A stretch of DNA of 64,000 bases from Mesorhizobium alhagi CCNWXJ12-2. GTDB taxonomy: Bacteria; Pseudomonadota; Alphaproteobacteria; Rhizobiales; Rhizobiaceae. Of the stretch, positions 22,346 through 39,778 are shown one piece after another. The notes beneath the pieces were generated by a model. The model was given only the letters and a program-made list of their open reading frames with translations. It was not told the origin of the DNA and searched no databases. The stretch lies in NCBI RefSeq assembly GCF_000236565.1, contig NZ_AHAM01000038.1, forward strand, positions 1 to 64,000, in the 5' to 3' direction. Position numbers and translations under genes: made by a program. The number at the start of each line of letters is the position of its first letter. The first letter of the stretch is position 1.

Positions 22346-22370
22346 GGAACCAGCGGCCTGCGATCCAGTT
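22346..22370 (+). promoter_or_regulatory. EcfG/RpoE2-type promoter
   Basis: GGAAC (22346-22350), 18 bases, TT (22369-22370); the -10 reads AGTT. It lies 80 bases before the ferritin-like gene. Matches the rhizobial general-stress sigma consensus GGAAC-N18/19-TT, weakly at -10. Confidence 0.55.
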
Positions 22371-22450
22371 AGGGGATCAGAACTTCCCTTATCGAAGTAC
22401 CGCCGTATCTTGCGGGAATTTCGGCGGCTCGAGCCGAAAGGATCACCATC

Positions 22451-22945
22451 ATGCAGATCACCACTTTCAAGGACATGTATCTTGCCGAACTTCAGGAGCT
22501 TGTGAGCGCTGAAGGTCAACTTGGGGAATCGTTGCTGCAGATGGCGGAAGTGGCGTCGCATCCGGCTTTGAAGGACGCGCTGCTACACCATCGCGAGCAA
22601 ACCGAGGTCCAGAAGGAACGTCTCGTCTCGCTGCTGCAGAAGCACGGCGCCGAACCCAGGGCGCATACCGATCAGGCGATGCAGGCGCTCATTCACGAAA
22701 CCGAGAAAATGCTCGGCATGCTGAAGGGAAATGATCTCCGCGATGCGGGCCTCATCGCTTCCGCCCAGAGGCTGGAACATTATGAGATCGCGGCATACGG
22801 CACCGCCGCGGCTCTCGCGGGGCAGCTGGATCTGCGCGACGACCAGCGGATCCTGCACAGGAGCCTCGAAGAGGAGAAGCAGACGGATATCCTGCTGACC
22901 CAATTGGCCAAAAGCGAAGTAAATCCGGATGCGGTGGCGGCTTGA
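22451..22945 (+). CDS. Ferritin-like DUF892 protein (YciE/YciF family)
   Basis: 164 residues, a four-helix bundle with the family pattern: FKDMYLAELQELVSAEGQL, LLHHREQTEVQKERL, DAGLIASAQRLEHYEIAAYG (E-H-Y-E-I metal-site signature) and a final LEEEKQTDILLTQLA. Members are stress-induced, and some bind a diiron centre. A small membrane protein gene follows after 23 bases. Confidence 0.93.
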   Translation: MQITTFKDMYLAELQELVSAEGQLGESLLQMAEVASHPALKDALLHHREQTEVQKERLVSLLQKHGAEPRAHTDQAMQALIHETEKMLGMLKGNDLRDAGLIASAQRLEHYEIAAYGTAAALAGQLDLRDDQRILHRSLEEEKQTDILLTQLAKSEVNPDAVAA

Positions 22946-22968
22946 GGACCGCTCCGCATTTGCAAGTC

Positions 22969-23124
22969 ATGGCCAAGGACGACGATACCGAGCAATTCAC
23001 CTATCCGGGCGAGAAGGCGCGCCAAGGTGAAATCATCCTCAGAACGCGAGCGCGGCGCCTCATCTTCATTGCAGGGCTGGTGGGTTTTGTGGTGCTCGCA
23101 ATCGTGCTGCAGATAGCGCTCTGA
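22969..23124 (+). CDS. Small single-span membrane protein (51 aa)
   Basis: Starts MAKDDDTEQFTYPGEKARQG, a hydrophilic cytoplasmic part with RQGEIILRTRARR, followed by one membrane helix (IFIAGLVGFVVLAIVLQIAL) that ends the protein. This layout is a recurrent rhizobial small-protein family of unknown role. No strong ribosome site; probably co-transcribed with the DUF892 gene. Confidence 0.7.
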   Translation: MAKDDDTEQFTYPGEKARQGEIILRTRARRLIFIAGLVGFVVLAIVLQIAL

Positions 23125-23204
23125 GGGCGAGGGCGGCATCCACATCGGCGCGCCGATCGGCATAACCAGCGGGCGATCAGCTTCGGGCTGCGGTTGCCTA
23201 CCTG

Positions 23205-24629
23205 TCATTCGGTCTTGGCGGAAGCGGCCTGACGGCCGCCGACCGTGGGCGAGCCGCCGCTTTCCGACACAACGACGGTTTTGATGTTGACGAACTCCTT
23301 GATCCCATAGTGCGAGAGCTCGCGGCCGTAGCCGCTCTCCTTGACGCCGCCGAAGGGGAGTTTGGGATGCGATTGGACGGTTCGGTTGACGAAGACGGAA
23401 CCAGCTTCGACGGCCTCGACGGCGAGGCGCTCACCACGGTCGATGTCCCGGGTGAAGATTCCGCCGCCAAGCCCGAACGCGGAATCGTTCGCCACGTCGA
23501 TAGCGGTCTTCTCGTCTCCGACCGGAATAATGGCGGCCACCGGTCCAAACATCTCCTCGTCATAAGCGGGCATACCCGGCCGCACGTCGGTCAGGACGGT
23601 CGGCGGGTAAAAGGCTCCGGGTCCGTCGGGAATCTTGCCGCCCAGCAGGCAGCGGGCGCCCTTCGCCAGGCTTGTCTCGACCTGGCGGTGCAGCGCCTCG
23701 CGCAGGTCATGACGCGCCAGCGGGCCGACGGTCGTGTCCTCCGACAAGGGATCGCCCATCTTTGCCGCCCGCATTTCCTCTACGAATGCATCCTCGAAAC
23801 TGGAATGCAGACTGTCGACAACGATAAAACGCTTGGCCGCGATGCAGCTTTGACCGGAATTGACGAGGCGGCCTTCGGCGCTCGCCTTGGCGGCAAATGA
23901 AACGTCGGCGTCGTCAAGCACGAGATAGGCATCGCTGCCGCCGAGCTCGAGGACCGTCTTCTTCAGCATCTCGCCAGCCTTGCGCGCTACGGCCCGGCCG
24001 GCGGGACCGCTGCCGGTAAGTGTGACGGCGCGAACAAGCGGATTGGCGATCAGGTCGTCGACGGAGCCGGACCCGATCAGCAGCGTGCGGAAAAGATGCT
24101 CCGGAAATCCCGCCTCGCGAAATACCTCCTCGATGGCGAGCGCACAGCCCGGCACATTTGAAGAATGCTTCATGACCCCGGCATTTCCCGCCATCAGCGC
24201 CGGCGCGGCAAAACGGAAGACCTGCCAGAACGGAAAGTTCCAGGGCATGATTGCAAGGATGACCCCAAGCGGCTGGAACGTGACGAAGCTCTTGGCGGCT
24301 CCGGTGTCGATGATTTCCGGCGCAAGAAAGCTGGCGGCGTTTTCGGCAAAGAAATCGCACCCGTCGGCGCATTTCTGCGCTTCCGCGACGCCCTGCTTTA
24401 TCGGCTTGCCCATCTCTTCGGCCATCAGCCGGCCGTATCGATTTGACCTCTCACGAAGCAGGCGGCCCGCGGTGCGCATCGATTTCGCCCGCTCGGCGAT
24501 ATCGCGGCGACGCCACTGCAGCGAGGCTTCGTGGGCTTGCTCGACGGCCTGCCGAACCGCCGCCGGAGAGGTTTCCTCGTAACTCGCGACAGCTTTGCCC
24601 GTCGCCGGATTGACCGCGGTGAACGTCAT
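23205..24629 (-). CDS. NAD(P)-dependent aldehyde dehydrogenase (succinate-semialdehyde type)
   Basis: 474 residues starting MTFTAVNPATGKAV (ATG 24629; the frame is open to 24698 inside the sodC end). Catalytic residues: LELGGSDAYLVL (general-base Glu) and NSGQSCIAAKRF (nucleophilic Cys), with MPWNFPFWQVFRFAAPALMA around the cofactor site. The order and length fit succinate-semialdehyde or related aldehyde dehydrogenases. It begins ten bases after the sodC stop, so the two form an operon. Confidence 0.92.
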   Translation of the reverse strand: MTFTAVNPATGKAVASYEETSPAAVRQAVEQAHEASLQWRRRDIAERAKSMRTAGRLLRERSNRYGRLMAEEMGKPIKQGVAEAQKCADGCDFFAENAASFLAPEIIDTGAAKSFVTFQPLGVILAIMPWNFPFWQVFRFAAPALMAGNAGVMKHSSNVPGCALAIEEVFREAGFPEHLFRTLLIGSGSVDDLIANPLVRAVTLTGSGPAGRAVARKAGEMLKKTVLELGGSDAYLVLDDADVSFAAKASAEGRLVNSGQSCIAAKRFIVVDSLHSSFEDAFVEEMRAAKMGDPLSEDTTVGPLARHDLREALHRQVETSLAKGARCLLGGKIPDGPGAFYPPTVLTDVRPGMPAYDEEMFGPVAAIIPVGDEKTAIDVANDSAFGLGGGIFTRDIDRGERLAVEAVEAGSVFVNRTVQSHPKLPFGGVKESGYGRELSHYGIKEFVNIKTVVVSESGGSPTVGGRQAASAKTE

Positions 24630-24639
24630 CGGCGCAGCG

Positions 24640-25155
24640 CTATTCGATGACCGCGCAAGCCTGACGGTCGCCTGCATCCCCGGAGGGCTGGCTTTCATAG
24701 TCGTCCTGTCCGCCGTGGATCATCAAGGCCTTGCCGCGGATGTTCGTATCGCCTTCGTCCAATCGCACTGATCCGTTGAAAACCTGCGCGCGAAGCGTGC
24801 CGTCGGCGCCGACATATTGATTGGGCATATCGCCCGCATGCGGGCCGCCGTCGACGTTATATCCGTGCTTTGCGTCGGTCGGATTGAAGTGACCGCCTGC
24901 AGACTCATGTCCCGTTGCAGGATCGCAGGTTCCGGTTTCATGGACATGGAACCCCACCCACTGGCTCGCAGGCAATCCGGTGACTTCGATTTCGATCAGC
25001 ACGCCGCCTTCGGTTCCCGTCAGCTTGGCGGTGCCGTTCTCTTCACCCGCCGCGTTGACGAAATTGGCGGTGGCGGAAGGCGGTTCCTGAGCGCCTGAGA
25101 CGGCGGTCAGTGCGAGGATCGCTGTGGCGGTGATGATAGCGCGCTTCATGTCCAT
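24640..25155 (-). CDS. sodC: Superoxide dismutase [Cu-Zn], exported
   Basis: 171 residues with a Sec signal peptide (AIITATAILALTAVSGAQ). Copper and zinc ligands: GFHVHETGTC, GHESAGGHFNP, and ALMIHGGQDDY; the disulfide cysteines are in TGTCDP and RQACAVIE. It detoxifies periplasmic superoxide. No GGAAC promoter is visible upstream, unlike most units nearby. Confidence 0.95.
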   Translation of the reverse strand: MDMKRAIITATAILALTAVSGAQEPPSATANFVNAAGEENGTAKLTGTEGGVLIEIEVTGLPASQWVGFHVHETGTCDPATGHESAGGHFNPTDAKHGYNVDGGPHAGDMPNQYVGADGTLRAQVFNGSVRLDEGDTNIRGKALMIHGGQDDYESQPSGDAGDRQACAVIE

Positions 25156-25264
25156 GGTTCTCCCAGTCGAGCATCATGACGGTCAAACTGCACAGGCGCG
25201 TTTTTGTTCAGCGGAAATCGCACGCAGGACTGGCAATCCGGCTGTGCGCCATCAGCGCCACCGG

Positions 25265-25290
25265 GGAACAAACCGATGTGAGATGGCGTT
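25265..25290 (+). promoter_or_regulatory. EcfG/RpoE2-type promoter
   Basis: GGAAC (25265-25269), 17 bases, CGTT (25287-25290), a full match to GGAAC-N16/17-CGTT. It lies about 140 bases before the SDR-SPW-VKOR gene at 25429. Confidence 0.7.
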
Positions 25291-25428
25291 TCGCCCTGTC
25301 GGCCGAGGAACCTAGCGAATGCGTGCTCTGCCGATCTCGCTGGTGTAGCCAATGCCGACAGCCGCCGGCGACCAATCGGAATAGTTCATCGCCCGAAGAT
25401 TCATCTCCCGCAGGAGCGGAAAATCGGA

Positions 25429-27969
25429 ATGACTGACGCGAGCCGTCCGATCGTCCTCATCACAGGCTCCAGCGGCTTCCTCGGCCAGGCGATCGCGCTT
25501 GGCCTGAAGGATCGCTACCGCGTGATCGGCCTCGACGTTGCCCAGCCGAGAAAGCCGATCGAGGGGATGACCACAATCGAGATCGACCTGACGTCCGACG
25601 AGAGTGTCGATGAATCGATGGCGCAGGTGCGCGCCCAGGCCGGCGACCGCATCGCGTCGGTCATCCATCTCGCCGCCTACTACGACACGACAGGGGAGGA
25701 CAATCCGAAATACGACGCGGTTACGGTGCGGGGCACGCGTCGCCTGCTGAAGGCGCTGAAGGAATTCGAGACGGAGCAGTTCGTGTTTTCGAGCACGCTT
25801 CTCGTTCACGCCCCGAGCCCGGAGAAGGGCGTACGGATCGACGAGAATTCCCCACTCGATCCCGCATGGGCATATCCGCGGTCGAAGACCGAGACGGAGG
25901 CGCTGATCGCAAGGGAGCGCGGAGGCATCCGCACGGTGACGCTGCGGCTCGCAGGTGTCTATGACGAGGACTGCCGCGCCGCCTTCATCGCTCAGCAGAT
26001 CGCCCGGATTTTCGAGCGGCTGCCGACCGCCTACCTGTTCGCCGGGGACATCAAGAGCGGCCAGCCTTACCTGCACAAGGACGACCTCGTCGACGCAGTC
26101 GTGCGGACGGTCGACCGTCGGCATGAGCTTCCCGAGGAGACCGTGCTTTTGATCGGCGAGGAAGAGACGCCATCCTACGAAGAGATGCAGAAGCGGATCG
26201 GCCGACTCGTGCATGGCGAGGACTGGCAGACAGTCGTCCTGCCCAAAAATCTCACGAAGCTCGGGGCTTGGCTGCAGACCGAGGTTCTGGAGGAGGACAC
26301 CGACATCAAGCCATGGATGATCGAAAACTCCGACGACCATTACGAGATCGACGTCTCGCGCGCCAAAGCCCTGCTGGGCTGGCAGCCGCGGCACAGCCTG
26401 ACCGGCACGCTTCCCGAAATGATCCGCCGGCTCAAGGCCGATCCCACCGACTGGTATGACAAGAACAAGCTCGAATCTTCGGTTGTTGCGGCTTCGGAGC
26501 CCGAGATCGACCAGGCTGAAAGGCGACTGCAGGCACCGCTCGAACGCAGCGAGCAGGAGGTCGAGGCGGCGATGGAACGGCACAGGGCGTGGACGCTCTG
26601 GGCGCCGCTCGCCAATGTCGCGCTCGGACTCTGGCTGGTCACGTCGCCGTTGATGCTCGGCCTGTTCGATCCGGTAACGGCGCCAGTTCCCCCAGCTCTC
26701 GGACATGAGATCGCCGAACCCGGACTCCGCAACATGCGGCTCGGCATCAGCGAGATCGTGTCCGGGCTGTTGGTGATGCTCTTTGCCTTTGTCGGCATGA
26801 GCCGCCGCTGGCGCTGGGTGCAGTGGATTGCAGCATCGATCGGCATCTGGGTGATGTTCGCGCCGCTGGTGTTCTGGACCACGAGCGCCGCCGCCTACGG
26901 AATCGACACGCTGGCCGGCATGCTGATCGTTGCTTTCGCGGTAATGGTCCCGCCGACGCCTGGCGTCAGCCGGCGCGCTTTGGCGGCCGACGACGACCGG
27001 CCGCTCGGCTGGAGCTACTCGCCGTCGTCCTTCACCCAGCGCATCCCGATCATCGCGCTCGCCTTTATCGGGCTGTTTGTCTCCCGCTACCTTGCCGCCT
27101 TCCAGATGGGGCATATAGACGGTTTATGGGATCCATTCTTCGGGCCGGGCGGTGCGCCGGTCTCGAACGGCAGCGAGGCCGTCGTGACGTCCTGGGTCTC
27201 GAAAGGGTTTCCGATCGCGGATGCCGGGCTCGGAGCCTTTGCCTACGCGCTCGATATCCTTGCCGGAGCCATCGGCGACCGCCGCCGCTGGCGCACCATG
27301 CCGTGGATGGTTTTCCTGTTCGGTCTCCTGATCATCCCGCTCGGCGTAGTCAGCGTCAGCTTCATCATCATACAGCCGCCGCTGATTGGCGCGCTCTGCA
27401 CGCTATGCATCATCCAGGCCGCCGTCACCGCTATCCTCATCCCGTATTCGATCGACGAGGTGCTGGCCACTTTGCAGTATCTCTGGCGCGCCAAGAAAGC
27501 CGGCGAGCCGTTCTGGCGAACCTTCTGGATGGGCGGGCCGGCCTTGTCGGAGAACCAGACACCCGAACCCGACCTTGACCGCCCGGTGGGAATCGTGTTG
27601 CGCGATTTCGTCATCGGCGGCGTGACGTTCCCGTGGAATCTGGTGGCGAGCATCATCCTCGGAGCGCTTTTGATGGCAACGCCATTGGTGTTCGGCACCC
27701 AGCCGCCGCTCTATTTCAGCGATCATGTGGTTGGCTGCCTCGTCATTCTTGTCGCCGTCACCGCTCTGGGGGAGATCGTCCGGGCCGTGCGGTTCCTCAA
27801 CGTGGCGCTCGGCGCCTGGATCGCGGCCTCGCCGTTCATGCTCGACGGGGCTTCTACCGCCGGAACGATCGCCGCTGTCGTGATAGGGCTTGCACTCATC
27901 GGGCTCAGCCTGCCGCGCGGCGTCCGCAGCAAGGAACATTACGGCGGATGGGACCGGGGGATCGTCTGA
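25429..27969 (+). CDS. Fusion protein: extended SDR + SPW + VKOR-like + SPW domains
   Basis: 846 residues in one uninterrupted frame. Residues 1-340 are an extended SDR (LITGSSGFLGQAIALGL, then AYPRSKTETEAL with YxxxK, RLAGVYDE). Residues about 385-510 are an SPW-type membrane domain (WTLWAPLANVALGLWLVTSP, then WIAASIGIWVMFAPLVF). Residues about 545-690 look like a VKOR domain: SWVSKGFPIADAGLGAFAY and the CxxC in GALCTLCIIQA, but no loop cysteine pair. A second SPW part (ALGAWIAASPFMLDG) ends the protein. An SDR cytosolic head on a redox-capable membrane body is inferred; the substrate is unknown. Preceded by a strong stress promoter. Confidence 0.85.
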   Translation: MTDASRPIVLITGSSGFLGQAIALGLKDRYRVIGLDVAQPRKPIEGMTTIEIDLTSDESVDESMAQVRAQAGDRIASVIHLAAYYDTTGEDNPKYDAVTVRGTRRLLKALKEFETEQFVFSSTLLVHAPSPEKGVRIDENSPLDPAWAYPRSKTETEALIARERGGIRTVTLRLAGVYDEDCRAAFIAQQIARIFERLPTAYLFAGDIKSGQPYLHKDDLVDAVVRTVDRRHELPEETVLLIGEEETPSYEEMQKRIGRLVHGEDWQTVVLPKNLTKLGAWLQTEVLEEDTDIKPWMIENSDDHYEIDVSRAKALLGWQPRHSLTGTLPEMIRRLKADPTDWYDKNKLESSVVAASEPEIDQAERRLQAPLERSEQEVEAAMERHRAWTLWAPLANVALGLWLVTSPLMLGLFDPVTAPVPPALGHEIAEPGLRNMRLGISEIVSGLLVMLFAFVGMSRRWRWVQWIAASIGIWVMFAPLVFWTTSAAAYGIDTLAGMLIVAFAVMVPPTPGVSRRALAADDDRPLGWSYSPSSFTQRIPIIALAFIGLFVSRYLAAFQMGHIDGLWDPFFGPGGAPVSNGSEAVVTSWVSKGFPIADAGLGAFAYALDILAGAIGDRRRWRTMPWMVFLFGLLIIPLGVVSVSFIIIQPPLIGALCTLCIIQAAVTAILIPYSIDEVLATLQYLWRAKKAGEPFWRTFWMGGPALSENQTPEPDLDRPVGIVLRDFVIGGVTFPWNLVASIILGALLMATPLVFGTQPPLYFSDHVVGCLVILVAVTALGEIVRAVRFLNVALGAWIAASPFMLDGASTAGTIAAVVIGLALIGLSLPRGVRSKEHYGGWDRGIV

Positions 27970-28002
27970 ACTGGCTGCCGATATCTCGCCTGTTCACGCC
28001 GC

Positions 28003-28722
28003 TCAGATATCGAGGAGCGCGTAGGGGCGGCCGGTCGGCTTCTCCACATCCGCGGCCACATTGTAGACCGGAGCGCCGCCCGGCGTGCGCCCTTCATAGG
28101 CGCCGCGGTGCGCATGACCATGCACTACGGCGCTCACCTGGAAACGATCAATGGTTTCGGCAAGCCGGGACGAACCGAGAAACGGGAAGATTTCCGGCGG
28201 TTCTCCGGCGACGGTTTCCAGGATCGGCGCGTAATGCAGCACAACCACGACACGTTCGGAGCGGACCTGTCGCATCGCATTCTCCAGACGTATCGCCTCG
28301 CCGACGCTTTCCGCCACCATTGCCTTGATTGCCGGCTCTCCGAAGGAACCGAGCATGCGCCGGCCGAAGCCGCCGATGAATCCTTTGACACCGACAAAAC
28401 CCACGCCGTCGATTTCGGTGGCCTGTCCGTCGAGCAAGTGGACGCCTGCGTGCCGCAGGATTTGGGTGATCTCCTCCGCGGCGGCGCTTTCGTAGTCATG
28501 GTTGCCGAGGACGGCGACGACGGGCACCGAGCAGGCGCGCAAATCCTCTGCCAGGATTTCGGCCTCGCGCGGCTTGCCGAGATCGGTCAGGTCGCCCGTG
28601 ATCACCAACGCGTCGGCCACGTGCGATATCTCTCCAAAGAGGTCGCGGAAGGACGTGTTCTGGTCCTCTTTCACGTGGAGGTCGCCCATGGCGGCGATTT
28701 TGAGCGTTTCCCGGTCAGCCAT
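28003..28722 (-). CDS. Metallophosphoesterase (calcineurin-like)
   Basis: 239 residues from ATG 28722 (GGAG ten bases upstream). Motifs: AAMGDLHVKE (D-x-H), LVITGDLTDLG (GD), AVLGNHDYES (GNHD), VVVLHYAP, and VVHGHAHRGAYEG (GHxH). Cytoplasmic; cyclic nucleotide or phosphoprotein substrates are possible. It follows a nucleotidyltransferase gene by 22 bases on the same strand, so the pair may write and erase the same modification. Confidence 0.9.
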   Translation of the reverse strand: MADRETLKIAAMGDLHVKEDQNTSFRDLFGEISHVADALVITGDLTDLGKPREAEILAEDLRACSVPVVAVLGNHDYESAAAEEITQILRHAGVHLLDGQATEIDGVGFVGVKGFIGGFGRRMLGSFGEPAIKAMVAESVGEAIRLENAMRQVRSERVVVVLHYAPILETVAGEPPEIFPFLGSSRLAETIDRFQVSAVVHGHAHRGAYEGRTPGGAPVYNVAADVEKPTGRPYALLDI

Positions 28723-28744
28723 GCAGAAACAACTCCCGACACGA

Positions 28745-29554
28745 TCAGTCGTTGCGCCGCTCGCCGTCGCCGCCCACATCGGCGAAGCCCCATTCGCCGA
28801 CGTCGAAGTCGTAATCGGCCAGCGAGTACATTCGGCCGCGGCAGATCTTCATATGGGACGGGGGCAGTTCGCGCTGCTTGGCCAGACGATCGAGCAACTC
28901 GTCCAGCAGCCATTCAGGGACATGGGCGCGCTCGCTGGGATAGATCCAGCGGAAATTCAGCAGATGGACGAGCAGCACTTCCCAGTGCGCTTCCATGTAG
29001 ACGAGCAGACGCTGCCAATCGATCTGGTCGTGCGCCCTTAGAAGCAGATGGGCTACGTCGGCCCCGTCATAGCGATGTCTCGTCTGGATGAAAGATTTGG
29101 ACCAGACGAGTTCCGTTGGCCCGATGATACGCACGGGAATGCCGAACAGCTCGATCGCGCACGCGTGCTCGAACCAGGAATCGCCGACCGGCACGGCGCC
29201 GTTCGACGAGGAGAAGATGACATCGAAAAAATTCCTGCCCTGAAAGACCTTGCCGAGCCAGCGATCGTCCTCGACCTCGACGGCGTATCCCTTGTCCTTG
29301 AAGAGGGCGAGAATGCGCGTGGAGTCCCCGGCTTTGCAGAAGATGTCGAGATCCTTCGTCTCGCGGGAGATTCCCGTATAAGCGCTTACGGCGTAGGCGC
29401 CGGCGATCAGGAAAGGAAGCCCGCTGGCGGCGAGTTCGCCGATGGCCGTGGCGTAGAATGCCTCCGCCTCCGGGTGCTCATGCGTCGGCGCGGCCTTCGC
29501 GTCGATGGAGGCATTCGTTTCCGGGATCGAGCCCGATCCTTGGCGAGCGGCCAT
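28745..29554 (-). CDS. Nucleotidyltransferase-fold protein (minimal NTase superfamily)
   Basis: 269 residues. FLIAGAYAVSAYTGISRETKDLDIF shows the NTase G[G/A]..A core with the metal pair D-x-D (KDLDIF) as in DNA polymerase beta-like and AbiEii-type proteins. The rest (FFDVIFSSSNGAVPVGDSWF, FGIPVRIIGPTELVW) resembles unnamed nucleotidyltransferase families. There is no antitoxin-like partner; the neighbour is a phosphoesterase. Function unproven. Confidence 0.82.
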   Translation of the reverse strand: MAARQGSGSIPETNASIDAKAAPTHEHPEAEAFYATAIGELAASGLPFLIAGAYAVSAYTGISRETKDLDIFCKAGDSTRILALFKDKGYAVEVEDDRWLGKVFQGRNFFDVIFSSSNGAVPVGDSWFEHACAIELFGIPVRIIGPTELVWSKSFIQTRHRYDGADVAHLLLRAHDQIDWQRLLVYMEAHWEVLLVHLLNFRWIYPSERAHVPEWLLDELLDRLAKQRELPPSHMKICRGRMYSLADYDFDVGEWGFADVGGDGERRND

Positions 29555-29595
29555 GCGTCAGTGCCTTCCGGGAATGCGCCCAGGTTCCTTCCTTG

Positions 29596-29621
29596 AACAT
29601 TGAACGATGTCCGCAGGTTCC
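29596..29621 (-). promoter_or_regulatory. EcfG/RpoE2-type promoter
   Basis: On the minus strand GGAAC (29621-29617), 19 bases, TT (29597-29596; -10 reads TGTT), about 40 bases before the nucleotidyltransferase start at 29554. Confidence 0.55.
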
Positions 29622-29684
29622 GTGGCGTGTTTTCGTTTGGCGGCAGTTTGCGATCATCCGGACGGAAATCTTGCATGCCTAAGC

Positions 29685-30020
29685 CTACTGCTTCGGCTTC
29701 CCGGTGCCCGGCGGTTCGTCCTTGCGGTCCGTCTGCCCGGCGACCGCGTCAGCCTGCGTCTCCGTGGAATATGGGGAAGGCTGGGCCTTATCGAGATCGC
29801 CGCCGTCGGCCACCCTGCCGCTCCCTCCCGTCGCAAGGTCGGCACGCCTGTCGGCCGAAGGGCTTGTTTCGCTGTCCTTCCAGACTTCCTTGGGATCGGT
29901 CAGGTCTTCGGTATCCGGATTGGCCTTCCGTCGCGCGTGCACGGTATCTGCCCCTGTGGTCCGGGACAGCTCGGCATCCTTGCCACGATTTCCTGTCATG
30001 TCAGCCTCCGGCTTGCTCAT
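29685..30020 (-). CDS. Hydrophilic, probably disordered protein (111 aa)
   Basis: Begins MSKPEADMTGNRGKDAEL behind GAGGAA and is composed almost wholly of D, E, K, R, T, G, P and S, with no hydrophobic core, for example GGSGRVADGGDLDKAQPSP. It resembles stress-induced hydrophilins in composition. Its ATG overlaps the TGA of the small basic gene upstream (ATGA). No homologous function recognised. Confidence 0.7.
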   Translation of the reverse strand: MSKPEADMTGNRGKDAELSRTTGADTVHARRKANPDTEDLTDPKEVWKDSETSPSADRRADLATGGSGRVADGGDLDKAQPSPYSTETQADAVAGQTDRKDEPPGTGKPKQ

Positions 30021-30172
30021 TTCCTCGCTTCGCCCCGGTCCGGATCCTTGCCCGCCGCCTGGCTGCTCTTCCTCGGCTGTTCATCCTTCTTCTTCTGGTC
30101 GCCGCCACGGTTTCCGCCGCGCGTTCCCTTGGGCTTCTTCGCCGTGCTTGCATCCTTCAGGTTCATTGCCAT
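30017..30172 (-). CDS. Small basic hydrophilic protein (51 aa)
   Basis: MAMNLKDASTAKKPKGTRGG, then NRGGDQKKKDEQPRKSSQAA and GKDPDRGEARK: a lysine/arginine-rich, probably disordered peptide. The start has an excellent GGAGG five bases upstream, and a full EcfG-type promoter lies about 45-70 bases upstream. It overlaps the next gene by ATGA. This gene is short but well supported by its signals. Confidence 0.72.
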   Translation of the reverse strand: MAMNLKDASTAKKPKGTRGGNRGGDQKKKDEQPRKSSQAAGKDPDRGEARK

Positions 30173-30217
30173 CAAAGCCTCCATCGCTGGCAGCCGATCC
30201 GAACGATCCTCACAGCC

Positions 30218-30242: not shown

Positions 30243-30312
30243 GAAGGTATGCGACGGCGATGAAGCTACGGCCGCGACTGCCCAAGGCAGTCCGCCCCGG
30301 ATCGGTCTATTC

Positions 30313-32245: not shown

Positions 32246-32275
32246 CCGGCGGTACTCACCTGAAAGGATCACGCA

Positions 32276-32743
32276 ATGCCGCTCACCCTCAGTAGCCCCG
32301 CCTTTTCCGACGGCGGCCCGATTCCAGAAAGGTACACGCGCGACGGCGAGAACGTCTCGCCGCCCCTGAAATGGTCAGGAGTTCCGGACGGCGCCAAGAG
32401 CCTGGTTCTGGTCGTGGATGATCCGGACGCCCCGCACGGAACCTTCGGCCACTGGGCCGTTTTCAACATCGCCCCGAACCTCGATGGTCTGCCCGAGGCC
32501 GAGGGCGGCAGGCCCGGCCCGGAAGCCCTGAGGCAGGGCAAGAACGATTTCGGCAACGCGTACTATGACGGCCCCGAGCCGCCCAGGGGGCACGGCGTCC
32601 ACCACTATCATTTCCGTCTTGCCGCGCTCGATGTGCCGAGCCTCGATATACCCGGACAGGTCGGCGTCACGAAGATTTGGGAAGAGGCGCGCAAGCATGC
32701 CGTAGAGGAAGCCGAGCTTGTCGGAACCTACCAGCGAAACTGA
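32276..32743 (+). CDS. YbhB/YbcL-type phosphatidylethanolamine-binding protein
   Basis: 155 residues. PEBP signature: VLVVDDPDAPHGTFGHWAVFN (split as DDPDAPHGTFGHW) with the anion-binding histidine, then PPRGHGVHHYHFRLAALD. Bacterial members are small, cytoplasmic and of uncertain role. It follows the phosphoribosyltransferase by 30 bases with its own AAAGGA site, and is probably the last gene of this stress operon. Confidence 0.93.
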   Translation: MPLTLSSPAFSDGGPIPERYTRDGENVSPPLKWSGVPDGAKSLVLVVDDPDAPHGTFGHWAVFNIAPNLDGLPEAEGGRPGPEALRQGKNDFGNAYYDGPEPPRGHGVHHYHFRLAALDVPSLDIPGQVGVTKIWEEARKHAVEEAELVGTYQRN

Positions 32744-32778
32744 TCAGACAAGCCGAGCTGATCCCATTCAGCCTGCCT

Positions 32779-32804
32779 GGAACGGCTATTTTGTCCGGGA
32801 AGTT
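32779..32804 (+). promoter_or_regulatory. EcfG/RpoE2-type promoter
   Basis: GGAAC (32779-32783), 19 bases, TT (32803-32804; -10 reads AGTT), about 80 bases before the site-2 protease gene. Confidence 0.5.
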
Positions 32805-32884
32805 CACCAGATGGAATCCCGACGAGGATACCGGGTCATCGACGCCGGGCAGGTGAATACGAGCATCGCGGGAGCGAATGGCGA

Positions 32885-34015
32885 ATGACGTGGTCCTTCA
32901 ATCTTGGAACGATTGCCGGCACGGCGGTGCGCGTGCATGTGACTTTTGCGCTCCTGCTCGTGTGGATATGGCTCATGCATTATCGCATCGGCGGTGCGCC
33001 GGCGGCCTGGGAAGGGGTCGCGTTCATCCTCGCCATCTTTGCCTGCGTCGTGCTGCATGAGTTCGGCCACATCGCCGCGGCTCGCTACTTCGGCATCAAG
33101 ACGCCGGACATCACGCTTCTGCCGATCGGCGGCGTCGCCCGGCTCGAGCGCATGCCCGAAGAGCCCGGCCAGGAATTCGTAATCGCTATCGCCGGTCCGC
33201 TGGTGAATGTGGTCATCGCCGCGCTCATCTTCGTCGCACTTGGCGGATCGGCCGGGGTCGAGCAGATGGCGCAGGTGGAGGACCCGCGTAGCGGATTTCT
33301 GGTCAGGCTCGCCGGGGTCAACGTCTTCCTCGTGCTGTTCAACATGATCCCGGCGTTCCCTATGGACGGCGGCCGGGTCTTGCGCGCTGCCCTGGCGTCC
33401 CGCATGTCGTGGGCGCGAGCGACCCAGATCGCCGCTTCGATCGGCCAGGGGCTCGCCTTCGTCTTCGGCTTCATCGGGCTCTTCTACAATCCGTTCCTGA
33501 TCTTCATCGGCATCTTCGTCTATCTCGCCGCGGCGGCGGAAGCGCAGGATGCCCAAATCCGCGACGTCGCCGCCAGCGTGCTGGTCGGAGACGTGATGGT
33601 CACCGACTTCGTCAGGCTGGAGGGCACTGCGAATATGGACCAGGCGATCGAGGCGCTGCTGGCGACGACCCAGCGCGAATTTCCGGTGGTCGATTCCGCC
33701 GGCCGTCTCGAAGGGCTGCTGACCCGCGACGACATGATCCGCGCGCTGAAGGAGACCGGACCCGGAGCGCCAGTTTCCAGCGCGATGCGGACCGACATAC
33801 CCAGCATCCATTCACGCCGATCCCTCAGCGAAGGCTTGAGGATGATGCAGCAGAAGAGTGTGCCGGCCATCGCAGTCACCGATCGTGCGGGTCACCTTGT
33901 CGGTCTCATGACCTACGAAACCATCGGAGAGATGATGATGGTGCGGGCTGCTGTGCCGGAAGGCTTTCGTTTCGGCCGGCTGCGCCGGGCCAACCGGCAC
34001 TCCACTCAGGTCTAG
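32885..34015 (+). CDS. Site-2 protease (M50) with C-terminal CBS pair
   Basis: 376 residues. Membrane zinc protease motifs: VVLHEFGHIAAARYFG (HExxH) in helix two, and NMIPAFPMDGGRVLRAAL (N-x-x-P-x-x-x-x-D-G third ligand). About residues 235-355 form two CBS domains (VMVTDFVRLEGTANMDQAIE, MRTDIPSIHSRRSLSEGLR), which probably sense adenine nucleotides. This is the group III rhomboid-independent intramembrane protease layout; the substrate is unknown. Confidence 0.94.
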   Translation: MTWSFNLGTIAGTAVRVHVTFALLLVWIWLMHYRIGGAPAAWEGVAFILAIFACVVLHEFGHIAAARYFGIKTPDITLLPIGGVARLERMPEEPGQEFVIAIAGPLVNVVIAALIFVALGGSAGVEQMAQVEDPRSGFLVRLAGVNVFLVLFNMIPAFPMDGGRVLRAALASRMSWARATQIAASIGQGLAFVFGFIGLFYNPFLIFIGIFVYLAAAAEAQDAQIRDVAASVLVGDVMVTDFVRLEGTANMDQAIEALLATTQREFPVVDSAGRLEGLLTRDDMIRALKETGPGAPVSSAMRTDIPSIHSRRSLSEGLRMMQQKSVPAIAVTDRAGHLVGLMTYETIGEMMMVRAAVPEGFRFGRLRRANRHSTQV

Positions 34016-34099
34016 TCATTCCGGCAAGGCACTGCCCGGTCCAAAGGGGGCAATGCCTGTACCCGTTGCCAGCCGAACACGCGACTTTGAACATGGTTA

Positions 34100-34124
34100 G
34101 GAACCGCCTGAAGACTCGGCTGTT
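34100..34124 (+). promoter_or_regulatory. EcfG/RpoE2-type promoter
   Basis: GGAAC (34100-34104), 18 bases, TT (34123-34124; -10 reads TGTT), 95 bases before the PLP enzyme gene. Confidence 0.55.
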
Positions 34125-34218
34125 AGGAAAGCCAAGGACAAGGAGGCTAGCATGCCCATTGGCTTTTTAGACGAAAGCGCGTCCGTTTCGGCGAATGGCG
34201 GTCGCACGAGGCGATCTG

Positions 34219-35544
34219 ATGCGCCATGACAGGCGTAAGTTCCTGATGTTGACGGGGACCGGCCTGGCGGCGGTCTCGGCAGGATCCCTGGTCCAGCCCA
34301 ACCAAGCCACCGGGCAGGCGTCGGCAACTGATACGGGCAATAGCGGGAGCTGGGACACGGTTCGTGCGGCGTTCGATCTCTCCGAGGACCGCATTCACAT
34401 GAGCGCGATGTTGATCGCCTCGCATCCCAAGCCCGTTCGTGACGCGATCGAGGAGCACAGGCGCGGTCTCGATGCGGATCCTGTTGGCTACCTTGAAAGG
34501 AATGACAGCCGATTGACCAGGGCCGTCCGTTCGGCGGCAGCCGGGTACTTGGACACGCACGCGTCCCTCGTCGCACTTACCGATAGCACCACGATGGGCC
34601 TTGGACTTGTTTACAACGGGCTCAGACTGCGGCCAGGACAGGAAATAATCACCACGGACGAAGACTACTACGTCACGCATGAATCGGTGCGCCTTGCTAC
34701 GGCGCGGAGCGGCGCCGACATGCGAAAAATAGCGCTTTTTCAGAACCTTGACGGCGTCACGGCGGAGGAGATCGTCGATCGGATCGCGCGGGAGATTGGG
34801 CCGTCAACACGTGCCCTTGCCGTCACGTGGGTGCATTCGAGCACCGGGTTGAAGATTCCGGTCGCCCGAATCGCCGAACGGCTCCAGGAAATCAATGCCG
34901 GGCGTGACGAAGACGACCGGGTGCTGCTTTGCGTCGACGGGGTTCATGGTTTTGGAACCGAGGATTCCGACATGCCCGGTCTCGGTTGCGATTTCCTGAT
35001 GGCTGGCTGCCACAAATGGCTTTTCGGCCCGCGCGGCACCGGCATAATCGCAGCCAGCGAACGCGGCTTTTCAGCCACCCGGCCAACCATCCCCAGCTTC
35101 ATCGATGATTCTACCTTCTCTGCATGGATCAACAACGAAGCGCCTGCTGGTGCGAACGACGGCGCCCGGATGACGCCCGGCGGCTTCAAAGCCTTCGAAC
35201 ACCGGTGGGCGCTGACGCAGGCATTCGAGTTCCACGACGGAATGGGCAAGGAGAACGTTGCGGCGCGCACGCACGAACTCGCTGGAGCCTTGAAGGAAGG
35301 TCTTGCCGGATTCACCAATGTTTCACTGGTCACGCCGCAATCGCCGGAGCTTTCCTCGGGAATCGTGTCTTTCGACGTCGACGGCATTTCACCGCAGCAG
35401 GCGGTTTCAGCCTTGAGGGAGCGTGGAATCGTGGCCTCGGTGGCGCCTTACACACGCCCGCATGTGCGGCTGACGCCAAGCGTCCGGAACACGGAAGCCG
35501 AAATCGAAACTGTGCTTTCCGCGGTCCATTCGCTTGTCGACTAA
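34219..35544 (+). CDS. Tat-exported aminotransferase class V-fold PLP enzyme
   Basis: 441 residues from ATG 34219 (GAGG seven bases upstream); the frame opens at 34195. The N-terminus MRHDRRKFLMLTGTGLAAVS is a twin-arginine signal (RRKFL). The fold-type I domain has ALTDSTTMGLGLVYNGL (cofactor phosphate), LLCVDGVHGFGTE (PLP aspartate) and AGCHKWLFGPRGTG (Schiff-base lysine). It resembles isopenicillin N epimerase-like proteins and is presumably folded with cofactor before export. Substrate unknown. Confidence 0.9.
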   Translation: MRHDRRKFLMLTGTGLAAVSAGSLVQPNQATGQASATDTGNSGSWDTVRAAFDLSEDRIHMSAMLIASHPKPVRDAIEEHRRGLDADPVGYLERNDSRLTRAVRSAAAGYLDTHASLVALTDSTTMGLGLVYNGLRLRPGQEIITTDEDYYVTHESVRLATARSGADMRKIALFQNLDGVTAEEIVDRIAREIGPSTRALAVTWVHSSTGLKIPVARIAERLQEINAGRDEDDRVLLCVDGVHGFGTEDSDMPGLGCDFLMAGCHKWLFGPRGTGIIAASERGFSATRPTIPSFIDDSTFSAWINNEAPAGANDGARMTPGGFKAFEHRWALTQAFEFHDGMGKENVAARTHELAGALKEGLAGFTNVSLVTPQSPELSSGIVSFDVDGISPQQAVSALRERGIVASVAPYTRPHVRLTPSVRNTEAEIETVLSAVHSLVD

Positions 35545-35573
35545 CGGTCGGCGGGCGGCCGAATGATTCGGGC

Positions 35574-36050
35574 CTAGCTTCTCCGGCGCAATTCATCATT
35601 GATCATCCCGCCTGCGGCCAAACCGGCGGCCATCGCCAGAAAAGTCGCCGCGATGGACCGCTTCGACAGCACGGTCTCCCAACCCGGCGTCAACCGCTTG
35701 GGCACGAGGCCGTAGTCCACCGCCGCAGCGATCGCGGCAGCCCCCAATGCGTCGCGAAGCATGACAAGCGGCGGACGAGGCGGCCTGGAGGCGAGCCACG
35801 TTTCGAACAAGAACGCCCAGAAGATGGAGGAGGCGTGATGCGTGCCGTAGCCGACAAGCGTATGCGCAACATCGGCATGGCGGACGGATCCGGCTTTCTC
35901 GCCGTAGAGCCAGTGGCTGGTCGAATTCGTGGGCTGCAGGGCGCCCTTGCCTTCGGTTCGTGCAAGCAGGCCCAGCACGGCCGTGGTGGCGACGCTGACA
36001 ACTGTGCCCGAAATGGCCGCGGACAATCCTGTTTGCAGCGGACGGTTCAT
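35574..36050 (-). CDS. Membrane protein of unknown function (158 aa)
   Basis: Start ATG 36050 behind GGAGG (five bases); the frame continues upstream without a site. MNRPLQTGLSAAISGTVVSV begins a first membrane segment; others include SSIFWAFLFETWL, LGAAAIAAAVDYGLV and a C-terminal TFLAMAAGLAAGGMI. The histidines in HTLVGYGTHHASS are notable. I assign no function. It has a full-consensus stress promoter. Confidence 0.78.
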   Translation of the reverse strand: MNRPLQTGLSAAISGTVVSVATTAVLGLLARTEGKGALQPTNSTSHWLYGEKAGSVRHADVAHTLVGYGTHHASSIFWAFLFETWLASRPPRPPLVMLRDALGAAAIAAAVDYGLVPKRLTPGWETVLSKRSIAATFLAMAAGLAAGGMINDELRRRS

Positions 36051-36118
36051 TTCAGCCTCCGTAGCCTGGAGCGCGCTGCGGCAGCGCCATCCCGGTCGCG
36101 CACTCGGTCCTGTTCTCG

Positions 36119-36143
36119 AACGAATCGGGAGCAAGACTGTTCC
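36119..36143 (-). promoter_or_regulatory. EcfG/RpoE2-type promoter
   Basis: On the minus strand GGAAC (36143-36139), 16 bases, CGTT (36122-36119): full consensus, about 70 bases before ATG 36050. Confidence 0.7.
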
Positions 36144-36229
36144 TGGGATCGCAGGTTCAATATCAACTGGGCTCCAGAATTTGCGGAGCGCGTGATAGAC
36201 ATTCACGGCGCAGGACACCGAGGTGCGGC

Positions 36230-37516
36230 ATGCAGATCATCGTGACCGGGGCGACGGGATTGATCGGCTCGGCCGTCTGCGCAAGGCTTTCCAGCGAGGG
36301 TCACGCCGTCATCGCTGTCGTGCGCGGCAAGGGTTCTCCCGCCATTGCGGCCAGCCACACCATTGTCGTCGACTTGGCGGCCGCAACGCGGGCCGAGGAT
36401 TGGCTGCCTCATCTTGTTGGCGTCGATGCTGTGGTGAACTGCGCTGGCGTGCTTCAGGACAGCCCGCGGGAATCGACGAAAGGGGTCCATGCCGAAGGAG
36501 CAGGCGCATTGTTCGCCGCGTGCGAAGCGGCGGGCATCCGCCGCGTCATCCATTTTTCCGCGATCGGCGTCGACCGCGGGACCGTCTCGGAATTTTCAAG
36601 GACCAAGCTCGCCGGTGACGAAGCGCTGATGGCGCGAGACCTGGATTGGGTCATTCTGCGGCCCTCCGTGGTGCTCGGCCGCAACGCCTTTGGCGCCAGC
36701 GCGCTCTTTCGCGGCTTGGCGGCATTGCCATGGCTGCCGGTGATGCCGAATGCCGGACCTCTCCAGGTGGTGCAGCTCGACGATGTCCTGGACACAGTCT
36801 CGTTCTTCGTGGATCCCTCAGCTCCGGCGCGTTGTGCGCTTGAGCTGGCGGGGCCGGAACAACTCGCGATGCAGGACGTGGTGGGCCGCTACCGCGCGTG
36901 GATGGGCTGGCCGCCCCCGCGCACGATCACGCTTCCCGAATGGGCTGCAGCGGCCCTCTACCGCCTTGGCGATTTCGCCGGCTCGCTCGGCTGGCGGCCG
37001 GCGATGAGAACGACTGCCCGCAAGGAGATCGCACGAGGTGCGGTAGGCGATCCGCGCCCGTGGACGGCGATGACCGGAATCGAGCCCCGGCCTCTCGCGG
37101 CCGCCCTGCGGGCGGAACCGGCGTCCGTTCAGGAAAAATGGTATGCGAAACTGTTCTTCCTCAAGCCGGTCATCTTCACGGTATTTCCTGTCTTCTGGCT
37201 GGTTACGGGGATCGTGTCGCTCACGACGGGATATGACGCGGGCGTCGACCTTATGCGGCGCGCAGGCGCGGGAGCGCTGGCAGCGCCCGGGGTCGTCTCC
37301 GGCGCGCTTGCGGATATTGCCGTCGGCCTTGCCATCGCCTACCGCCCCACGGCCAGATACGGCCTCAGCGGTGCGCTGGCGCTCTCCCTGTTCTATCTGG
37401 CCGCCGCCACCATCCTGCTTCCGGGGTTGTGGAGCGACCCGCTGGGCGCGCTGGTCAAGATTTGGCCGATCCTCGCCCTGAACCTTGTCGCACTGGCCAT
37501 ACTGAAAGAGCGCTGA
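36230..37516 (+). CDS. SDR-family NAD(P)-binding protein with DoxX-like membrane domain
   Basis: 428 residues. N-terminal Rossmann domain: IIVTGATGLIGSAVCARL, NCAGVLQDSPRES, HFSAIGVDRG and WVILRPSVVLGRNAFGAS (atypical SDR a5-like). From about residue 300, four hydrophobic segments form a DoxX-like region (VIFTVFPVFWLVTGIVSL, ALSLFYLAAATILLPGLW). A soluble dehydrogenase head on a membrane quinone-type domain is inferred. Its TGA overlaps the DUF2269 start (TGATG). Confidence 0.9.
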   Translation: MQIIVTGATGLIGSAVCARLSSEGHAVIAVVRGKGSPAIAASHTIVVDLAAATRAEDWLPHLVGVDAVVNCAGVLQDSPRESTKGVHAEGAGALFAACEAAGIRRVIHFSAIGVDRGTVSEFSRTKLAGDEALMARDLDWVILRPSVVLGRNAFGASALFRGLAALPWLPVMPNAGPLQVVQLDDVLDTVSFFVDPSAPARCALELAGPEQLAMQDVVGRYRAWMGWPPPRTITLPEWAAAALYRLGDFAGSLGWRPAMRTTARKEIARGAVGDPRPWTAMTGIEPRPLAAALRAEPASVQEKWYAKLFFLKPVIFTVFPVFWLVTGIVSLTTGYDAGVDLMRRAGAGALAAPGVVSGALADIAVGLAIAYRPTARYGLSGALALSLFYLAAATILLPGLWSDPLGALVKIWPILALNLVALAILKER

Positions 37517-37989
37517 TGCTGTACTTCATGCTCAAATATCTGCACGTCATCGGCGCGTCGGTGCTGCTCGGCACCGGAGCCGGCATCGCCTTCTTCATGC
37601 TGCTCGCCCACCGGACGGGCGAGGCACGCATAGTGGCTGCCGTTGCGAGGATCGTCGTCGTCGCCGACTTCCTTTTCACCGCCACCGCGGTCGTCCTGCA
37701 ACCCATCACTGGCATCGCGCTGGCCTGGCATGTCGGCTATTCGCTCTGGGACGGATGGATCGTCCTGTCGATCCTACTCTATCTGGTCACCGGCGCCTTC
37801 TGGCTTCCGGTCGTCGGGATGCAGATGGAAATGCGAAAGCTGGCGGAACAGGCGGCTGCCATCGGAGCGCCGCTGCCGCCCCGCTACCACAGCCTGTTCC
37901 GGTTGTGGTTCCTTTTCGGGTTTCCGGCTTTCGGCGCCGTCATGGCGATCTTCTGGCTCATGATCGCCCGGCCGAACCTGGAGTGGTGA
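37516..37989 (+). CDS. DUF2269 family membrane protein
   Basis: 157 residues, four predicted helices: MLYFMLKYLHVIGASVLLGTG (conserved histidine in the first helix), VVVADFLFTATAVVLQPITG, WIVLSILLYLVTGAFWLPVV and LFGFPAFGAVMAIFWLMIA. It is translationally coupled to the SDR-DoxX gene, and the pair recurs in proteobacteria, suggesting a membrane redox complex. Confidence 0.92.
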   Translation: MLYFMLKYLHVIGASVLLGTGAGIAFFMLLAHRTGEARIVAAVARIVVVADFLFTATAVVLQPITGIALAWHVGYSLWDGWIVLSILLYLVTGAFWLPVVGMQMEMRKLAEQAAAIGAPLPPRYHSLFRLWFLFGFPAFGAVMAIFWLMIARPNLEW

Positions 37990-38030
37990 TTGCATCGAAG
38001 TGGCAGCAGTCGGCCAAGATCGGCTTTTGC

Positions 38031-38055
38031 GGAACAAGCGCATCGGGCGACCGTT
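38031..38055 (+). promoter_or_regulatory. EcfG/RpoE2-type promoter
   Basis: GGAAC (38031-38035), 16 bases, CGTT (38052-38055): full consensus, about 50 bases before the BON gene start at 38106. Confidence 0.72.
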
Positions 38056-38105
38056 CCTGGAACAAGCGAGGCGCTGCCTCGCAATCGCCGACGAGGAGAC
38101 TGGCC

Positions 38106-38708
38106 ATGGCAAATCCAGCGAACGAGCGGCCCGGCAGGTATGGCGCCGATATGCAGAGGGCCCGTCCGGATGGCGACCATATGCCGGACCGGACCTTCGG
38201 CGACGATGAAAACTGGAACGATTTGGGCGGTACGGGCGTGCGCTACGGCGGCAGCTCAAGCGGCGGCTACGGCACCGGCGGCGCCGCGCTGGACTACCGG
38301 GACGTCGTCGGAAGCCGCTACGACTGGGAGCATCGCTACTCGGATGCCCGGCAGGTATTTCCGGAGGAGGGCCGTCATCGCGGACGCGGACCTCGCAGTT
38401 ACACCCGTCCGGATCAGCGCATCCGCGAGGATGTGAGCGATTGGCTGACCGAGGATCCGCATATCGATGCGTCCGACATCGAAGTGACCGTCGAGAGCGG
38501 GGAGGTCACGCTTTCCGGCACGGTCATGAGCCGGCCGGTCAAGCGGCGCGTCGAAGATCTCGCCGAATCCATTCCCGGAGTGAAACACGTGCAGAACAAT
38601 CTGCGGATCCAGAACAGGGCCGGTGTTCTCATGGGCGCCGGACGCAGCACCGGCGGCACGCCAGGGGGCTCGACTGGCGGTCAAGGCAATACCCCGACGA
38701 TATTTTAA
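38106..38708 (+). CDS. BON domain protein
   Basis: 200 residues from ATG 38106 (GAGGAG upstream). The first 95 residues are low-complexity, glycine-, tyrosine- and arginine-rich (GGSSSGGYGTGG). The BON domain follows: IREDVSDWLTEDPHIDAS, IEVTVESGEVTLSGTV, RRVEDLAESIPGVKHVQNNL. The tail is G/T/S-rich. There is no signal peptide, unlike OsmY, so a cytoplasmic membrane-associated stress protein is likely. Confidence 0.92.
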   Translation: MANPANERPGRYGADMQRARPDGDHMPDRTFGDDENWNDLGGTGVRYGGSSSGGYGTGGAALDYRDVVGSRYDWEHRYSDARQVFPEEGRHRGRGPRSYTRPDQRIREDVSDWLTEDPHIDASDIEVTVESGEVTLSGTVMSRPVKRRVEDLAESIPGVKHVQNNLRIQNRAGVLMGAGRSTGGTPGGSTGGQGNTPTIF

Positions 38709-38753
38709 ATGCTGAAATTGCGAATGGGGAGCGCAGTCGGGGTGACCCTGCGC

Positions 38754-39557
38754 CTAAATGTAGGGAAGCGTCCCGAGTGACGAGTAGCGCTCATTCAGGC
38801 GGTTCAGGGTCTCCAAATCCTCTTCGCCGATATCGAAATCAAACACGGCTATATTCTCTTCCAGATGCTGCCGCTGGTTGGCTTTGGGCAAGGGGGCGGA
38901 GCCGCGCTGCAGGTTCCATCGAATCAGCACCTGCGCCGGGGATTTGCGGTACTTGGCGGCAATCCCGGCAAGCGTCTCGTCCCGCAGTCGCCTGGTGCGC
39001 GTGAGGGGGCTGTATGCCTGAATGACGATCTTCTTCTCCTGGGCATAGCGCATCATGCCATCGCTGTAGCCGAACGGGCTCCACTCGATCTGGTTGACCG
39101 TCGGGACTTCGTCCGTCGCTTCGATCAGCGCGTCGATGAGGTCGATGGAGTAGTTGCTGACGCCGATGTCTTTCGCCAGGCCGTCCTCCTTCGCACGGAT
39201 CAGGCCTTGCCACAGATCTTCTCCCGCTCCTGCGCGCGGTGGGCGGTGTATGAGCATGAGATCGGCATAGTCCAATCGCAGTTCGTCGAGATTTTTGCGC
39301 GTCGCTAGATATGCGTCGTCCGTTTCCTCCACTTTCGTGACCAGGAAGAAGTCCGCGCGCTCGATGCCGCTCCGATTGATTCCGTCAGCAATACCGGGCT
39401 GGGTGCCATAATCTCCGGACGTGTCGATCATGGCATACCCCAGTTCCAGGGCAGCGGCGACAGTTCCAGCCGTGTCGTTTGTCAACTGCCACGTGCCGAG
39501 GCCCAGAACGGGCATCTTCTTGCCAGTATGCAGCGTTATCTCACTCTTCGGGTCCAT
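38754..39557 (-). CDS. Aldo/keto reductase
   Basis: 267 residues from ATG 39557 (AAGG upstream; the frame extends to 39815 without support). TIM-barrel AKR motifs: MPVLGLGTWQLTNDTAG, LELGYAMIDTSGDYGTQ (catalytic D-Y), FLVTKVEETD (Lys), YADLMLIHRPP (His) and GVSNYSIDLIDAL. It reduces aldehydes with NADPH, probably stress-generated carbonyls. Confidence 0.94.
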   Translation of the reverse strand: MDPKSEITLHTGKKMPVLGLGTWQLTNDTAGTVAAALELGYAMIDTSGDYGTQPGIADGINRSGIERADFFLVTKVEETDDAYLATRKNLDELRLDYADLMLIHRPPRAGAGEDLWQGLIRAKEDGLAKDIGVSNYSIDLIDALIEATDEVPTVNQIEWSPFGYSDGMMRYAQEKKIVIQAYSPLTRTRRLRDETLAGIAAKYRKSPAQVLIRWNLQRGSAPLPKANQRQHLEENIAVFDFDIGEEDLETLNRLNERYSSLGTLPYI

Positions 39558-39623
39558 ATCCGTGCCTTTGTTTGGCGGCGACATCCCGGTTTGTCCGTGG
39601 AACCCGGCCGTGCTCTCGCACCC

Positions 39624-39648
39624 AAACATCCGCTCGGTAAAAGTGTTC
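39624..39648 (-). promoter_or_regulatory. EcfG/RpoE2-type promoter
   Basis: On the minus strand GGAAC (39648-39644), 18 bases, TT (39625-39624; -10 reads TGTT), about 67 bases before the aldo/keto reductase start. A small palindrome GGCAGAC-ATAA-GTCTGCC (39662-39679) lies just upstream. Confidence 0.58.
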
Positions 39649-39753
39649 CGGTCGGCAACCCGGCAGACATAAGTCTGCCTGTTCTCTTTTCCGGCGCGGT
39701 TCCAACCGGTTCGCTGCCGGTGCGAGCGAGCGGTAGGCAGCGGTAGTTTGGCG

Positions 39754-39778
39754 GGAACCATCTTCATGCCGGCTGGTT
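39754..39778 (+). promoter_or_regulatory. EcfG/RpoE2-type promoter
   Basis: GGAAC (39754-39758), 16 bases, GGTT (39775-39778), about 138 bases before the CBS gene at 39916, in the same divergent spacer as the aldo/keto reductase promoter. Confidence 0.55.

Follow-up and report, generated by a model that had tools for sequence, protein, structure and literature searches.

A contiguous cluster of putative EcfG-dependent general-stress genes in Mesorhizobium alhagi CCNWXJ12-2

Known EcfG regulons and the M. alhagi cluster

In the general stress response, the sigma factor EcfG is released when PhyR, once phosphorylated, binds its anti-sigma factor NepR. Here we describe a cluster of about twenty genes of Mesorhizobium alhagi CCNWXJ12-2 in which most transcription units are preceded by an EcfG-type promoter motif. 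It was found in the window, that is, the whole stretch of 64,000 nucleotides analysed (positions 1-64000 of contig NZ_AHAM01000038.1), which is part of a 6.97-Mb draft genome of 375 contigs (G000). Sequence comparisons indicate that the cluster is very probably a contiguous accessory block of EcfG-dependent general-stress genes, each unit having its own promoter.

The closest described systems are the EcfG/RpoE2 regulons (group 15 of the extracytoplasmic function, ECF, sigma factors), such as that of S. meliloti RpoE2, with which M. alhagi has in common the promoter form and the presence of the regulator trio in the genome. According to excerpts of PMC6180224, the GGAAC...CGTT form occurs among RpoE2 promoters, including one that precedes a pair of hypothetical and CBS genes. 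Details of the S. meliloti PhyR-NepR-sigma system are given in PMC3616915, an excerpt of which reports that 150 of the 202 genes raised by RpoE2 overexpression have no predicted function, a situation resembling that of the present cluster. The excerpted descriptions of this regulon also name target kinds similar to those of the cluster (many hypothetical proteins, CBS and PRC-barrel); the difference is that here many candidate targets, whose use of EcfG is predicted, are contiguous in one 18-kb block. In S. melonis Fr1, the EcfG consensus is GGAAC-N17-20-GTT, and an aldehyde dehydrogenase (ALDH) and a YbhB/YbcL protein are among the products of EcfG-dependent genes; the gene of the second has a poor motif of its own (excerpt of PMC6599016). 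The motif and targets of these two types are common to the cluster, but S. melonis belongs to a different bacterial order and the excerpted description contains no comparable block. Informally compared with such excerpts, Pfam families of the cluster resemble some of the published EcfG targets. Among the titles and abstract openings listed from the open-licence literature, we noticed none about EcfG targets arranged in contiguous blocks. Finally, an SDR-SPW-VKOR fusion gene is found in other Alphaproteobacteria, mostly Sinorhizobium/Ensifer and Mesorhizobium, where the same protein has motif-rich surroundings, but the neighbouring genes are largely different from those of the cluster.

Motif enrichment upstream of the cluster genes

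Sites were located by exact pattern scans on both strands. Transcription units were taken from a gene finder trained on the window, and a motif was counted when it was found within 300 bases upstream of a unit in the sense orientation. Two congeners were used for comparison: G002, a near-complete genome in four contigs, and G001, in which a contig carries only part of the cluster.

The original prediction had listed 14 units at this location, 11 of them with GGAAC-N18/19-TT upstream, and the independent gene finder agrees: at 22.3-40.35 kb, 11/14 predicted units show this motif on the sense strand, and the three exceptions are the same. All eleven sites (Table 1; each is named here by its 5' position) were found at the predicted places and strands, except that one minus-strand coordinate was off by one base (39649 instead of 39648). 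They all belong to the GTT form and are located 67-164 bases from the start given by the gene finder, and the pattern scans bore out the full GGAAC-N16/17-CGTT form claimed for 25265, 30242, 36143 and 38031.

A comparison of motif density with the rest of the genome had been proposed as a check, and was made on 200 other units: 160 come from 361 kb of this genome, sampled as 20 stretches, and 40 from elsewhere in the window. Contigs already present in the list of strict-motif matches supplied 14 of these stretches, a bias that can only raise the background. The contigs inspected for their strict matches (C104-C107, C109, C67, C128, C253, C57, C223, C280 and part of C192) were excluded; C108, also a strict match, was kept. 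The motif precedes 12 of the 200 units (12/160 and 0/40), in relation to 11/14 in the cluster (Fisher p 5.0e-10), and for the GTT form the figures are 9/200 and 11/14 (p 6.5e-11). Seven control patterns were found at 0 or 1 of the 14 cluster units and at 0-7 of the 160 background units. Furthermore, 15 distinct sites, counting both strands, fall between 22346 and 39778, versus 3.3 expected from the 1317 loose-motif sites in 6.97 Mb (Poisson p 2e-6); the four sites beyond the eleven are intragenic (24217 and 25062 on the minus strand, 32438 on the plus strand) or face the wrong way (38033, minus strand).

Table 1. Location of the EcfG-type motifs and of the gene cluster in the window
Feature	Position	Strand	Basis or conservation
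EcfG-type motif of DUF892 gene (22451-22945)	22346..22370	+	Pattern scan; kept in G002
EcfG-type motif of SDR-SPW-VKOR fusion gene (25429-27969)	25265..25290	+	Kept in G001 and G002
EcfG-type motif of NTase-metallophosphoesterase operon	29596..29621	-	Kept in G001 and G002
EcfG-type motif of small hydrophilic two-gene unit (30017-30166, then 29685-30020)	30218..30242	-	Kept in G002
EcfG-type motif of hydrolase-phosphoribosyltransferase-PEBP operon (30911-32743)	30812..30836	+	Kept in G001 and G002
Motif match before M50-CBS gene; probably no conserved promoter	32779..32804	+	Lost in G001 and G002
Motif match before class-V aminotransferase gene (34195 or 34219-35544)	34100..34124	+	Pattern scan
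EcfG-type motif of hypothetical gene (35574-36050)	36119..36143	-	Kept in G002, spacer one base longer
EcfG-type motif of BON-domain gene (38106-38708)	38031..38055	+	Kept in G002
EcfG-type motif of aldo/keto reductase gene (38754-39557)	39625..39649	-	Kept in G002
EcfG-type motif of CBS-domain gene (39916-40344)	39754..39778	+	Kept in G002
Gene cluster, about twenty genes	22451..40344	.	Open reading frames, Pfam families

Each of the three units that do not show the motif (sodC-ALDH, PCC/DUF296 and SDR-DoxX) diverges from a unit that does, and therefore, according to the coordinates, every one of the ten gaps in which units start holds a motif. One-mismatch candidates were found for sodC (TGAAC, 55 bases), SDR-DoxX (CGAAC, 113 bases) and PCC (GCAAC, 115 bases). 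Degenerate motifs as an explanation of the three exceptions were rejected, since among these candidates only that of SDR-DoxX has an exact form in G002. Bidirectional palindromic promoters (GGAAC...GTTCC), a candidate prompted by the 38031/38033 pair and by G002, were also rejected: CC follows GTT in only 12 of 143 unique sites.

Chance would explain the enrichment if GC-rich upstream DNA often contains GGAAC...TT and the best stretch was picked. Total counts are in line with this: genome-wide, the loose motif (1317 sites, 1445 for the reversed pattern) and the strict motif (157 and 116) show no clear excess, and in G002 the strict motif shows none (156 and 155 for the control). The signal therefore lies in place and strand, and there the background of 12/200 units and the near absence of control patterns from the cluster speak against chance, as does the conservation described below.

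Conservation in congeners and in other genera

The cluster of G002 has the same location, between genes encoding a CitMHS-type transporter and a GapR-like protein, and keeps nine of the eleven sites; that of 30242 is kept although no copy of the neighbouring PCC gene was found in G002. A mask of the same shape was wholly unchanged at 608 of 2085 offsets (29%), so that keeping 9/10 alignable sites is unlikely from general similarity alone (P ~1e-4). This value is rough, because the rate was obtained from eight of the ten sites and because two of the nine were counted as kept after a shift of spacer or alignment. Motifs precede 9/15 units of the G002 cluster and 14/254 units elsewhere (p 1.7e-7); the first figure leaves the hydrolase gene (ABhyd) uncredited because its gene-finder start is clipped, although its motif and frame are present. 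The 20 stretches sampled from G002 were evenly spaced except for one shifted off the cluster, and the samples of the two genomes each cover about 8%. Among the exceptions, exact motifs were found in G002 for SDR-DoxX and ALDH and none for sodC. In the partial cluster of G001, the sites of SDR-SPW-VKOR, NTase and ABhyd are kept.

The class-V aminotransferase gene (34195-35544), which follows the motif match at 34100, has no complete counterpart in G001 or G002. G002 shows a different gene at this location; it also has a 25-residue, 92% match to the aminotransferase.

The NTase-like gene is rare, being present in 11 of the 151 genomes of the family sample, its own included. All ten other copies, G002 included, show the motif 43-88 bases upstream, in relation to 0/10 for the reversed control. 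Of the 79 loci of the SDR-SPW-VKOR fusion gene, 19 show the motif (reversed control, 4). Among the nearer loci (L009-L039) the figures are 15/31 and 0, and the Sinorhizobium/Ensifer loci all show it (13/13), 37-69 bases upstream. Across genera, these comparisons make the predicted NTase and SDR-SPW-VKOR promoters well supported. Ortholog comparisons beyond the genus covered these two genes, BON, M50-CBS and ABhyd, and most other putative cluster promoters are supported within the genus only.

Several observations weigh against the reading of the cluster as an EcfG-dependent block. The sites 36143, 38031, 39649 and 39754 are inside longer alternative open reading frames and are upstream only when shorter starts are used. 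Distant SDR-SPW-VKOR copies show the motif no more often than the control (4/48 each), and seven Mesorhizobium loci of this gene (L010-L016) do not show it. BON relatives show it in only 10/24 cases, G002 included, many of them being matched by the BON domain alone and having rough starts, and ABhyd relatives outside the genus in 0/7. M50-CBS orthologs, in the same test as NTase, gave 0/23; furthermore, neither congener, each with an additional CBS gene in this gap, keeps 32779, and the site fails every conservation test made. In addition, contig C349 of the genome encodes another ECF factor, with 47% identity to EcfG.

The original prediction of an EcfG/RpoE2-type general-stress cluster is thus supported by the enrichment, by the conservation in a congener, by the same promoter on orthologs of two of the genes in other genera and by an ecfG-nepR-phyR locus on another contig. 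The list of sites needs correction: 34100 precedes a gene with no full copy in congeners and is a candidate only, and 32779 is probably a chance match or lineage-specific. Most of the eleven sites, about nine or ten, are probably real. Chance, of which 32779 at least has the appearance, is refuted as an account of the whole set, for which it is scarcely credible in view of the conservation in G002 and the motifs on orthologs of two genes; it is still a candidate for 32779 and 34100.

Regulators, gene content and motif-rich blocks elsewhere

The original prediction also held that the window contains no PhyR, NepR or EcfG gene, and this was borne out: tblastn searches with EcfG and PhyR gave no real match in the window, and the single NepR match of the genome is on another contig. 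EcfG and PhyR are encoded beside NepR, according to Pfam, and motifs face both ways between phyR and nepR-ecfG. In G002, ecfG (4,573,841-4,574,389) and the cluster (4,640,767-4,659,094) are about 66 kb apart, a distance that holds for that genome, the draft-genome contigs of the locus and of the cluster being unlinked.

Under stress, PhyR would be phosphorylated and bind NepR, and the EcfG so freed would direct RNA polymerase to start each unit at its own GGAAC-N17/18-GTT promoter. Because the promoters are separate, the block would rise together without being one operon. Its products could limit oxidative, aldehyde and envelope damage, as suggested by CuZn-SOD, ALDH, the aldo/keto reductase (AKR), DUF892, the VKOR fusion and BON. 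Both the stress induction and the protective roles are predictions. E. aridi copes with stress without RpoE2, according to an excerpt of PMC8877191; therefore, a strong phenotype of the cluster is not to be assumed.

The promoters could be real and yet be read mainly by another ECF sigma factor, the 47% paralog or an ECF26-like one, and so form a separate stress regulon. The paralogs on C349 and, more distant, on C281 (37%) leave room for this, as does the finding, in an excerpt of PMC6180224, that several S. meliloti RpoE2 targets also respond to RpoE6. We consider it improbable, since the motif fits the EcfG consensus and not the GGAATA/GT form given for ECF26 in the same excerpt, and since the same motif is found between phyR and nepR-ecfG in this genome. 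EcfG, instead of the 47% paralog, is the predicted user of the sites.

The cluster contains the genes for DUF892, a small open reading frame, ALDH, CuZn-SOD, SDR-SPW-VKOR, the metallophosphoesterase, the NTase-like protein, small hydrophilic proteins, PCC/DUF296, the hydrolase, the phosphoribosyltransferase, PEBP, M50-CBS, the aminotransferase, a hypothetical protein, SDR-DoxX, DUF2269, BON, AKR and CBS. Just after the 30242 motif, the Lys- and Gly-rich frame of about 50 residues at 30017-30166 overlaps the start of the next frame, 29685-30020. The fusion protein has 846 residues, with SDR, SPW repeats and a VKOR domain; its relatives range from rhizobia to Burkholderiales and sphingomonads, and the closest among the matches listed is a Mesorhizobium camelthorni record (95%). 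No paper containing both "SPW repeat" and "stress" was found in the open-licence literature. The median GC content at third codon positions (GC3) is 0.753 for 19 cluster genes and 0.834 for 46 genes of the window outside the cluster (p 6e-7), as accessory or lowly expressed genes would show. Gene content varies among the three congeners. Compared with the window, both congeners carry the region 41205-55258 in the opposite orientation; one of its ends is near the GapR-like gene of the cluster.

The 40 stretches sampled from the two genomes contain 361 units, of which 21 show the motif, and five pairs of neighbouring units both show it, versus about one expected (p 0.002; p 0.05 for the G000 stretches and 0.017 for those of G002). 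Three of the five pairs are in L224 (G002:C1:5370001-5390000), where 4/6 units show the motif beside genes resembling Ku and exonuclease by eye, and without it p is 0.15; as the test rests largely on this stretch, it only suggests that motif-bearing units cluster in general. The ecfG neighbourhood of G002 (L232, G002:C1:4560001-4580000), a stretch picked for its matches, shows the motif on 9/19 units. Around SDR-SPW-VKOR, 72/371 units show the motif in L009-L039 (31 loci, a few not from rhizobia; reversed control, 1/371) and 23/464 in more distant loci (reversed control, 11); these loci are not independent, several being closely related, and the query gene is itself included in the counts. The fusion gene of E. 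aridi LMR001 is near MPE-NTase, with the motif on 7/17 units, and that of M. mediterraneum is near a DUF892 relative, with the motif on 6/16 units. In S. medicae, the genes after it carry the annotations ZIP transporter, ATP-dependent DNA ligase and catalase. Many copies are on plasmid records (77 records, 64 of them from Sinorhizobium). Five contigs of the M. alhagi genome (C105, C106, C107, C67 and C128; loci L123-L127) show many motif matches, a GC content of 0.58-0.61 and small proteins resembling DUF3606 by eye, and are possibly a plasmid or island with stress genes.

The clustering of real promoters may have no role of its own, if a permissive site received successive insertions of accessory genes that include many stress genes. 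This is a serious possibility, short of an even chance: the differing gene content of the congeners, the lower GC3, the inversion and other changes at the GapR side and the loss of significance of the adjacency test without L224 fit it, while the adjacent pairs over all 40 stretches and the motif-rich ecfG neighbourhood, with the reservation on its choice, stand against it. A bolder proposal, which we hold as speculative and rather unlikely, is that the general-stress genes of rhizobia move as self-contained cassettes, with an EcfG promoter for every gene, and have been selected to collect in shared blocks, some near ecfG; the composition of these blocks would be remixed between species under an unchanging promoter grammar.

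Regulons of this kind are already known; the features that deserve further study are that the block is contiguous and that motif-rich blocks recur with differing content. The cluster adds about nine well-supported new candidate general-stress promoters, many of them before genes of poorly known function, and the whole set is in one block that could be removed by a single deletion. It raises the questions of why the targets of a sigma factor come together on a chromosome and whether stress genes pass between rhizobia along with their promoters.

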